DNA of 57,544 nucleotides, taken from an uncultured Pelagibacteraceae bacterium (GTDB lineage Bacteria > Pseudomonadota > Alphaproteobacteria > Pelagibacterales > Pelagibacteraceae). The position numbers were made by a program, and so were the translations under genes. A model generated the notes under the pieces. The model did no database searches. It saw only the letters and a program-made list of their open reading frames with translations, and was not told the origin of the DNA. Location: the NCBI GenBank assembly GCA_902596745.1, contig CACJUZ010000002.1, forward strand, positions 1-57,544. Reading direction: 5' to 3'. Every line of letters begins with the position of its first letter. Positions within the stretch are counted from its first letter, which is position 1. Shown one piece after another: positions 23,790 to 55,641 of this stretch.

Positions 23790-24494
23790 ATGATTGAAAT
23801 TTCAAAAATCCGTAAATTAAGTTTATGGATTTTTTTCCTGCCTTTAATTGCTATAAACTTATGTTTGATCATATCGGTAAATCCAGAGTTTCTAGATGAA
23901 ACAATTTTTCAAGTAGATCAAATAGGAAGATCTGGTTTTTCTATACCTTATTTAGACGGGAGCCTCTCAATTAGTAGAGCTTCAAGAACATTTCCTCAGT
24001 ACTTAATATTTAAACCAGCTATGATTATTACTGGAATACTATTATTTTATTATTGGAGCAATTATAATAGATTAATTTGTAATTTAAGAAATACAGAAAA
24101 TTTTAAATATAAGTTTCGTTTATTTGGAATTTTATCAGCGATATTTTTAATAATTCATTCAATTTTTTTAGGAGTAAAGTTCGACATCCAGTTATATAAA
24201 CTTTTTAGAAGGGTAGTTTTGCTTCTATTTATAATATTTGAATTAATTGCTCAAGGAATGCTTGTAAATTATTTATATAATGTAAAGGATAAAGTCTCTG
24301 AGATAATTAACAAAAAAATTTTAATTTTAAAAATATGTTTAGTTTCAATTTTAGTTATAGTAGCAATTGCTAGTTTACCTATACTAGTGACTAAAGGTAA
24401 TACTCATTTTAAACACGCATTAGAATGGAACTATTTTGTAGGTGTTATTGCTTTTTATTTAATGACTTTTTTTTTCTGGAGAAGAACCACTTAA
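23790..24494 (+). CDS. six-helix membrane protein of unknown function
   Basis: A 234-residue protein with about six membrane segments and a 50-residue non-cytoplasmic loop after the first. That loop holds GRSGFSIPYLDGS and an FPQY motif near residue 70; HALEWNYFVG precedes the last helix. This arrangement loosely recalls the Frag1/DRAM/Sfk1-type proteins, but the match is weak. It follows the basic peptide by 8 bases and its stop codon touches the end hairpin of the candidate RNA on the other strand. Confidence 0.75.
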   Translation: MIEISKIRKLSLWIFFLPLIAINLCLIISVNPEFLDETIFQVDQIGRSGFSIPYLDGSLSISRASRTFPQYLIFKPAMIITGILLFYYWSNYNRLICNLRNTENFKYKFRLFGILSAIFLIIHSIFLGVKFDIQLYKLFRRVVLLLFIIFELIAQGMLVNYLYNVKDKVSEIINKKILILKICLVSILVIVAIASLPILVTKGNTHFKHALEWNYFVGVIAFYLMTFFFWRRTT

Positions 24495-24665
24495 ATTTCT
24501 AGGCTTTCGCCCAGAAATTTAGTAGTTTTGGTTCGTCGTTGTAGGCGCTACCGCCGAACCCACCCGATCAACCATTTTAGCGCTACTCAGTTGACCTTTC
24601 TGCCCCTTAAGCTTGAACCTCTCGGTTTTTCCTTAATTGGCCAGTTAAGAGTTGCCTCTTAATTA
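24493..24665 (-). ncRNA. candidate structured RNA with five hairpins, three with GNRA loops
   Basis: Read on the minus strand from 24665 down. Hairpin 1: TTAAGAG-GCAA-CTCTTAA (24645-24662). Hairpin 2: AACC-GAGA-GGTT (24616-24627). Hairpin 3: GGTCAAC/GTTGATC with a 17-base loop holding AGCGCT (24566-24596). Hairpin 4: GGTTCG/CGAACC enclosing GTAG/CTAC (24530-24560). Hairpin 5: a 12-pair stem with a GAAA loop and one G-U pair (24493-24520), terminator-like but without a U-run. GCAA, GAGA and GAAA loops appear only on the minus strand, which sets the direction. No good ORF fills the interval and G+C is locally higher than in the neighbours. It lies 67 bases after mnmA. It does not show the signature bases of tmRNA, SRP RNA, RNase P RNA or 6S RNA that I know. 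Confidence 0.65.
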
Positions 24666-24732
24666 AATATATTAAAACATACATGAAAAAATAAATGTAT
24701 CACTTATTAGTTGATTGATATTTGCCTGTGGA

Positions 24733-25863
24733 TTAGGTGGATAAATTTTTATTAAAAGTCCTGTCTATCCATCCTCCACCTAAAACTTTATCCCCAGTGC
24801 TATCATTTAAATAAAATACACACGCTTGGCCTGGAGAAATACCATTTTCACCATCTATAATATTTACTTCTGCATTATTAGAATTTAGTTTAACTTTTGC
24901 TCTTAGCAATTTTCCAGTAGATCTTACTTTAATTTTTATCTCTTTTTTTAATTCGTCAATACTTCCTAGTATATTCAGCTCTCGTAAAATTACTTTATTA
25001 ATTTTTAAAGCTTCTTTAGGACCTACAATTATAGAATTTTTATTGTTATCTATTTTTATTACGTATAAAGGTTCTTTGTCAGCAATTTTAATACCTCTTC
25101 TTTGCCCGATGGTATAATTAATAATTCCATCATGCTGACCGATTACATTACCCTTAATATCTATTATTTTTCCAGATTTAAAAGACTCTGGTCTGAATTT
25201 TTTAATTACAGAGCTATAATCACCATTAGGAACAAAACATATATCTTGACTATCAGGTTTTTCAGACACATTTAAATTAAGTTTTTTTGCAATATTTCTA
25301 GTTTCCGATTTTTCTATATCTCCTAAGGGAAATCTTAAAAAATCAAGTTGTTCTTGCGTCGTGCTAAATAAAAAATAGCTTTGGTCCCTAGAAAAATCTT
25401 TAGCTCTATACATTGAGCTCTTCCCATTTGTTTGAATTCTTTTTATATAATGACCAGTTACTAAAACATCGGCCTTTAGGTCTTTTGAATACTTAAATAA
25501 ATCTCTAAATTTTACAGTTTGGTTACATTGTACGCAAGGTATTGGGGTTTCACCGGAAGTGTAACTATCAATAAAACTATCTATAACTTCTTTTTTAAAC
25601 TTTTGTTGATAGTATAATATTTCATGTTTTATATTTAATTGTTCAGAAACTCTTTTAGCATCTAAAATATCCTGCCCCGCACAACATTGTCTTCCTTCTT
25701 TAGAGGTTTTGGCATCATCATAAAGTTTTAAAGTAATACCTGTGACGTCATACCCTTCCTCTTTCATTAAACCTGCCGCAACTGAGGAGTCTACGCCTCC
25801 AGACATAGCAACAACTACTTTAATTTTTTTTTTGGGTTTATTTATTCCTAGTGAATTATTCAT
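24733..25863 (-). CDS. mnmA: tRNA 2-thiouridine(34) synthase
   Basis: A 376-residue enzyme that puts sulfur on the wobble uridine of Lys, Glu and Gln tRNAs, using ATP and a persulfide relay. PP-loop SGGVDSS at 21-27, catalytic cysteines in PCVQCNQ (near residue 120) and SQDICF (near 215), and GQRRGI near 264, all typical of MnmA. Standard length. Transcribed away from the DUF3553-cysQ pair. The candidate RNA lies just downstream on the same strand. Confidence 0.95.
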
Positions 25864-55440: not shown

Positions 55441-55600
55441 ACTCTTTTTTCTACCCCATCTGTTTTGAAACCTGAGAGATTTACTCCTTCGGTGAGGCTA
55501 AGCCTGCTTTCCAGAGTTATTACGGCAACGGTCCTTTTGCCTGAGAGTTTCCGGGGTGGTTGCTCCTTCGGCGCTACATTAATGTAGACTCTCCCGTTAC
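55441..55600 (-). promoter_or_regulatory. tandem glycine riboswitch upstream of gcvT
   Basis: On the minus strand two related aptamers follow each other. The first begins GGGAGAGTC at about 55595, with GCGCCGAAGGAGCAA (55562-55576) and ACTCTCAGGCAAAAGGACCG (about 55530-55549). The second repeats the core as CACCGAAGGAGTAAATCTCTC (within about 55474-55494) and CTCAGGTTTCAAAACAGA. Both the 'CCGAAGGAG' and 'CTCAGGNAAAAGGAC'-type cores are typical of glycine riboswitches. A short tail of about 15 bases joins it to the ATG, so control over translation or early termination is possible. SAR11 glycine riboswitches on gcvT are known. Confidence 0.95.
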
Positions 55601-55641
55601 ATCAGGACTTTCGTTTATTATCCGAGCAATGTCAAATAATT

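Follow-up and report, generated by a model that had tools for sequence, protein, structure and literature searches.

An IMES-2 RNA gene in a Pelagibacteraceae (SAR11) genome: core fold, flanking signals, hosts and candidate modes of action

The hairpin-rich stretch downstream of mnmA in the analysed window (the whole 57,544-nucleotide stretch of contig CACJUZ010000002.1, from an uncultured bacterium) encodes an IMES-2 RNA, carried by a Pelagibacteraceae (SAR11) genome. Positions 24528-24669 of the minus strand match the Rfam family RF02035 with 155.7 bits against a gathering score of 54.7 (cmscan, E = 7e-41). The match covers model positions 1-141 of 141, with the same helices and conserved loops and one non-standard pair marked, and the window copy exhibits no family-level difference. 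The other 8 matches of the permissive Rfam scan were all far under their own cut-offs. The first-pass annotation had called the RNA unassigned and had proposed an Rfam/Infernal search in which a significant match to a known family would make it ordinary; the search returned such a match, and the label of unassigned RNA is withdrawn. The identity is thus ordinary; the detail is above ordinary, comprising a loop-loop contact, an upstream module and a pattern of presence and absence among close relatives.

IMES-2 was named from marine sequences and is probably an abundant transcript in marine metatranscriptomes; we know of no function for it. SAR11 bacteria rank with the most abundant organisms of the ocean, and their streamlined genomes encode few regulators. 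IMES-2 can now be placed in defined Pelagibacteraceae lineages, with close relatives that carry the gene and others that do not. Together with the upstream module, the terminator-like end and the covarying loop contact, this makes the function of an orphan RNA testable. In the accessible portions of the literature searched, IMES-2 was named in a squid genome paper alone, which lists it among families of possible or likely marine contamination (PMC6962438), and RF02035 in none; IMES is not named in the main-text portions of PMC2864571, PMC8632094, PMC2704228, PMC5069720 and PMC6429828. What we add beyond the family level (3' hairpin, upstream module, loop-loop helix and host range) may be partly known already: the Rfam search output shows no pseudoknot, but such output may omit pseudoknots.

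Core fold and pairing between the P3 and P4 loops

The features of the locus are the following, in window coordinates.

24528-24669, minus strand: IMES-2 RNA core, as matched by cmscan
24645-24662, minus strand: hairpin P1, GCAA tetraloop; 7 pairs, 100% of cells paired (100 homologues), 5 pairs changed on both sides
24600-24644, minus strand: hairpin P2 with inner P2a (24616-24627), GAGA tetraloop; 11 + 4 pairs, of which 7 + 4 changed on both sides
24566-24596, minus strand: hairpin P3, loop carrying GUAGCGCUA; 8 of 8 pairs changed on both sides, with pairing in 96.3% of cells
24530-24560, minus strand: hairpin P4, loop carrying GGUAGCGCCUA; 9 drawn pairs, 5 changed on both sides
24578-24583, minus strand: kissing strand in the P3 loop, GCGCUA, pairing with 24545-24550
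24545-24550, minus strand: kissing strand in the P4 loop, UAGCGC, partner of 24578-24583
24486-24526, minus strand: 3' hairpin with GAAA loop, outside the Rfam model; -22.3 kcal/mol, poor U tail in this copy
24676-24681, minus strand: -10-like hexamer TATGTT, 16 nt after GTGATA; weak by itself
24698-24703, minus strand: -35-like GTGATA box in the block CAACTAATAAGTGATAC (24697-24713), found in 126 of 126 distinct copies
24726-24744, minus strand: tandem element TTATCCACCTAATCCACAG, overlapping the 3' end of mnmA; 1 mismatch to TTATCCMCA-N2-ATYCACA
24733-25863, minus strand: mnmA (Pfam PF03054, PF20259, PF20258), lying upstream in this genus and separate from the RNA unit

The interval 24493-24665 first proposed for the RNA was too short, since the Rfam part reaches 24669, the 3' hairpin extends to about 24486 and the upstream module ends near 24744. 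The first-pass annotation was right that the minus strand carries a structured RNA. The five stems drawn at that stage were all located, between 24486 and 24662, and so were the three GNRA tetraloops, in P1 (GCAA), in P2/P2a (GAGA) and in the 3' hairpin (GAAA). The interval is indeed richer in G+C than its surroundings (45%, against 26% and 28% in the 1-kb flanks). Consistent with the reported lack of an ORF, no sense frame is open across the core in 127 distinct full-length copies; two antisense frames run open through it, each in 1 copy.

Folding of 24493-24669 yielded -58.1 kcal/mol; shuffled sequences averaged -39.8 (z = -4.9), and none of 200 shuffles was as low. The minimum-energy fold draws P3 and P4 unlike the family, and the centroid contains all of P3 and a portion of P4. 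Covariation was calculated on 100 distinct homologues picked from the 127 full-length copies and aligned by fitting to the structure. Three loci were excluded from the structure and tail counts: L145, whose core is broken, and L118 and L156, which are cut by the end of the retrieved stretch. In this alignment 94.2% of 3899 cells were paired and 29 of the 39 pairs changed on both sides, these being the paired changes among SAR11 genomes that the first-pass annotation had suggested looking for. Cells changed on both sides numbered 505 versus 130.5 in shuffles, and 0 of 500 shuffles reached any of the five measures. One drawn P4 pair, between columns 123 and 141, pairs in 0 of 100 homologues. A MAFFT alignment of 41 sequences, made without fitting to the structure and with the two g2 sequences misplaced in places, agreed, giving 92.7% of 1844 cells paired and 29 of 45 pairs changed on both sides, kissing pairs included. 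Conservation is distributed across the whole fold. A likeness of the loop letters to pieces of tRNA or rRNA was considered and dropped, because these letters vary among homologues.

The apical loops of P3 and P4 had been noted for a shared self-complementary sequence through which they could kiss or dimerise. GTAGCGC does occur twice and AGCGCT once; GGCGCC is absent from the interval, the second loop reading AGCGCC. The two loops can kiss: the six P3/P4 loop columns pair in 97.0% of 600 cells (100 homologues), with 3 of the 6 pairs changed on both sides in 16 cells, and 0 of 500 shuffles match either the paired fraction or the count of cells changed on both sides. Of the five measures, two were unremarkable, namely the number of pairs changed on both sides (reached in 28 of 500 shuffles) and the number of pair types (394 of 500). 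The register is the best among those scanned; sliding it by 1-3 columns left 3.0-55.0% of cells paired, and the best six-column window in another register reached 67%. A standard pair is missing at the first position in 13 of 100 copies and at the last in 5 of 100.

Compensatory changes form three sets: GCACU(A/U) with UAGUGC in L042, L043 and L045; GUACUA with UAGUAC in L212, L046, L039, L157 and L117; and UCGCUG with UAGCGA in L167, L049 and L144. They are spread over four genera, g1 (L039), g2 (L042, L043), g3 (L049) and g6 (L045, L046). Because the loops of L042, L043 and L045 complement each other yet are not palindromes, the covariation favours a P3-P4 helix over self-dimerisation through one loop such as P3 with P3; the pairing may be formed within one molecule or between two. 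Neighbouring hairpins are also joined via their loops in purine riboswitches and in the SRP Alu domain. IMES-2 would likewise join two adjacent hairpins by their apical loops; unlike these systems it has no constant neighbour gene and no known ligand, and we claim no kinship.

Upstream module and 3' hairpin

A GTGATA box with at most 1 mismatch begins 33-38 nt before the core in all 126 distinct copies with enough upstream sequence, compared with 14 of 630 base shuffles. It is followed after 15-20 nt (most commonly 16, in 71 of 126) by a -10-like hexamer with 0 to 3 mismatches to TATAAT. A generic sigma-70 scan found no minus-strand promoter here and one site on the other strand, where 1.1 were expected. 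The box does not belong to a common stable-RNA promoter: in 18 stretches from six genomes it was never found 33-38 nt before the SRP, RNase P and tmRNA matches, and it occurred at other distances in 9 of the 18 (at most 1 mismatch).

Further upstream, the tandem pattern TTATCCMCA-N2-ATYCACAR fits 73 of 125 copies with no more than 2 mismatches, versus 2 of 625 base shuffles, and six copies fit poorly (5-6 mismatches). These counts are to be read knowing that the upstream consensus was derived from the same related sequences later counted and that shuffles ignore kinship. In 112 of the 119 better copies the two halves lie 11 nt apart. The element starts before GTGATA at 49-52 nt in 69 of these 119 copies, at 39-44 nt in 47 and at 47 nt in 3. 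A DNA-binding protein at the tandem element is suggested by the two spacing clusters, which differ by about one helical turn.

Among 16 whole genomes, the element (at most 1 mismatch) was found once each in 4, at IMES-2 in G000, G048 and G070 and within a 517-codon ORF in G011. A backward control of the pattern likewise gave 4 among the 16, so that the uniqueness of the element is not proven. IMES-2 is carried by 9 of the 16, 6 of which have an element with more than 1 mismatch. In the window, the pattern fits with at most 3 mismatches at three places (2.4 expected), and with 1 mismatch only at IMES-2. Exact TTATNCACA was not enriched in the window, with 2 found, neither at IMES-2, and 3.6 expected. 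Given the 4 of 16 genomes, the equal backward control and this lack of enrichment, a replication origin at the tandem element is unlikely.

At the other end, a hairpin of -14.8 to -24.5 kcal/mol starts 0-5 nt past the core in 126 of 126 tails. Among controls taken from the first 60 copies, none of the 59 next stretches and none of the 59 shuffled tails reached -14.8 kcal/mol. A generic scan also finds the hairpin of the window (1 found, 0.4 expected). A U run of at least 4 lies within 12 nt after the hairpin in 79 of 126 tails; the run of the window copy is 2.

Hosts and genomic context

IMES-2 was detected in 139 of the 297 sampled genomes of the order, with one match each, in 4 of 11 genera; all matches lie in the family of the window (f1). 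Within the class sample, 3 of 385 genomes matched, again all in f1. The order and class searches used stricter filters, which can lose weak matches. None of the 14 control genomes had a match. A DNA pattern of the P1 region retrieved at least 120 loci from public genomes, all named Pelagibacteraceae, Pelagibacterales or Candidatus Pelagibacter among the matches listed. As all listed loci bear Pelagibacter-group names, the host group is SAR11, and IMES-2 is thereby found in marine bacteria. Two patterns searched in viral contigs pointed to one contig, L236, which the IMES-2 model misses and which has no further likeness by eye. Viral carriage of IMES-2, with L236 as its sole candidate, was rejected.

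We specifically considered the genomes without a match. Among the 6 listed for genus g1, 5 also lack an mnmA match, and in the sixth a contig end truncates mnmA; these absences look like assembly gaps, less probably a loss of the region. In genus g3, several single-contig genomes (G003, G005, G011, G013, G020 and G026) truly lack the RNA at its usual place, the neighbouring genes abutting there. A broadened model (R1) applied to 38 genomes without IMES-2 pointed to 12 places in 11 genomes, the best with 17.6 bits. Each of the 12 falls within a stop-free stretch (193-631 codons), and Rfam matched none of them; they were taken as chance and not as hidden diverged copies. Many relatives lack IMES-2, so not every member of the family needs it. 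A tree of 210 columns, built with 50 of the 121 distinct positive rows and all 18 negative rows, required 5 changes and was poorly resolved, and we claim no direction of gain versus loss.

The genomic context was analysed at 191 loci with a core match (130 distinct cores and 179 distinct neighbourhoods, some genomes being present in two collections). The RNA has mnmA upstream at 51 loci, an alkyltransferase-like gene (Pfam PF01035) downstream at 134 and a third gene pair at 2, the remaining 4 being cut or broken. In the third pair, assigned by eye, a nuclease-like ORF and an SRAP-like ORF flank IMES-2. In 5 examined loci of g1 and g6, the order is mnmA, IMES-2 and a convergent ORF without Pfam match; in the window this ORF occupies 23790-24494 on the plus strand and encodes 234 aa, hydrophobic by eye. 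In 8 examined loci of g3, IMES-2 precedes the alkyltransferase-like gene on the same strand, the gene beginning just past the terminator. A recombinase of the phage-integrase family (PF00589) and a small ORF lie further upstream in most of these 8. The recombinase is not tied to IMES-2, since 16 of 18 loci that lack the RNA also have it close to the alkyltransferase-like gene. At L052, L054, L058 and others it stands beside genes that resemble glycosyltransferases by eye, upstream of IMES-2, and perhaps an island edge lies next to the IMES-2 gene in g3. At L145 (263-396), the core is cut short within the P3 loop and gives way to the recombinase region, which is probably an amplification chimera of a single-cell genome.

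Candidate modes of action

We consider it probable that the locus is a single-copy, self-standing RNA gene of about 180-190 nt with its own signals and a fold locked by P3 and P4, which would act in trans through a protein or RNP. RNA polymerase would start near 24669 from the predicted GTGATA/TATGTT promoter, helped or hindered by a protein at the tandem element, and transcription would end at the 3' hairpin. In the predicted fold, P1 and P2 would make up a 5' part that contains two GNRA loops, and P3 and P4 a 3' part, where they would lie next to each other and be locked loop to loop. This compact RNA may then bind and hold a protein or RNP. The family, the helices, the P3-P4 loop pairing, the constant upstream module and the 3' hairpin are established by comparison of homologous sequences; the protein-partner step would follow by exclusion. 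Trans action via a protein appears the most likely outcome because the longest conserved loops are used in the kissing and the neighbours are unrelated across genera. A trans-acting, protein-binding RNA is likewise favoured by the closed fold and by a gene that retains its own start and stop signals in three locations.

The RNA could instead be a trans-acting antisense small RNA of the Hfq type, pairing with mRNAs via short open segments, which we regard as rather unlikely. Such an RNA would also be a free-standing unit with a terminator-like 3' hairpin, and the U runs present in most of the tails would suit it, as would the purine-rich linkers between hairpins, which are open and partly conserved. 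Its odds are somewhat lowered because the loop-loop helix occupies the longest conserved loops; conservation over the whole fold and the poor U tail of the window copy may also speak against it.

It is improbable that IMES-2 binds RNA polymerase as a functional substitute for 6S RNA. The Rfam 6S model (RF00013) matched neither the window, as the first-pass annotation had expected, nor any of 32 genomes of the order including that of the window (G000). The same search gave matches in 5 of 14 controls, including Caulobacter, and 4 of the 5 exceeded the cut-off; as the model misses the other 9, it may also overlook a diverged 6S. Moreover, 15 of the 32 genomes have IMES-2 and 17 do not (the 17 include 3 g1 genomes that probably have gaps), so that IMES-2 and 6S are not mutually replacing by presence, 6S being found in none. 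The hallmark of 6S RNA is a long rod interrupted by a central bubble. IMES-2 is, like 6S, a free-standing structured RNA, but its fold differs and lacks this hallmark.

A related proposal, to which we give little credence, is a protein-holding RNA coupled to growth or replication. It would have putative DnaA-type boxes 11 bp apart on one helix face upstream of the promoter, and a 6S-like role where no 6S is detectable. The tandem TTATCCMCA/ATYCACA presumably resembles the DnaA-box consensus, and putative DnaA binding stems from that likeness.

It is very unlikely that the RNA is a cis element, either as the 3' UTR of mnmA here or as the leader of the alkyltransferase-like gene in other genera. 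The core does begin about 63 nt past the mnmA stop codon, and the alkyltransferase-like gene follows on the same strand at the 134 loci mentioned above. A cis leader or riboswitch would keep a constant position before one gene or pathway, and three contexts were found instead; these three unrelated chromosomal sites argue against cis-control of mnmA. The upstream module and 3' hairpin travel with the core, and the alkyltransferase-like gene abuts its neighbour in genomes where IMES-2 is missing.

Finally, a divergent tmRNA, SRP RNA or RNase P RNA, for which a compact, G+C-rich, single-copy RNA might be mistaken, is refuted, in line with the lack of fit to these RNAs seen in the first-pass annotation, because each was found over its cut-off elsewhere in the same genome: SRP RNA (RF00169) at G000:C18:8319-8413 with 57.2 bits, alpha tmRNA (RF01849) at G000:C2:123971-124269 and class A RNase P RNA (RF00010) at G000:C10:23312-23664. 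In agreement with the window genome, a cultured SAR11 strain is reported to have SRP, RNase P and split tmRNA genes (PMC2704228).

Other structured RNAs were observed along the way. No Rfam SRP RNA match was obtained in 4 of 20 genomes (G028, G048, G090 and G164), which likely have a diverged SRP RNA, and three g3 genomes were under the cut-off. IMES-1 (RF02034), a marine RNA of the same naming series as IMES-2, exceeded its cut-off in none of 97 genomes of the order and gave one sub-cut-off match of 27.4 bits. The window also contains a glycine riboswitch aptamer at 55519-55606 on the minus strand (68.4 bits).
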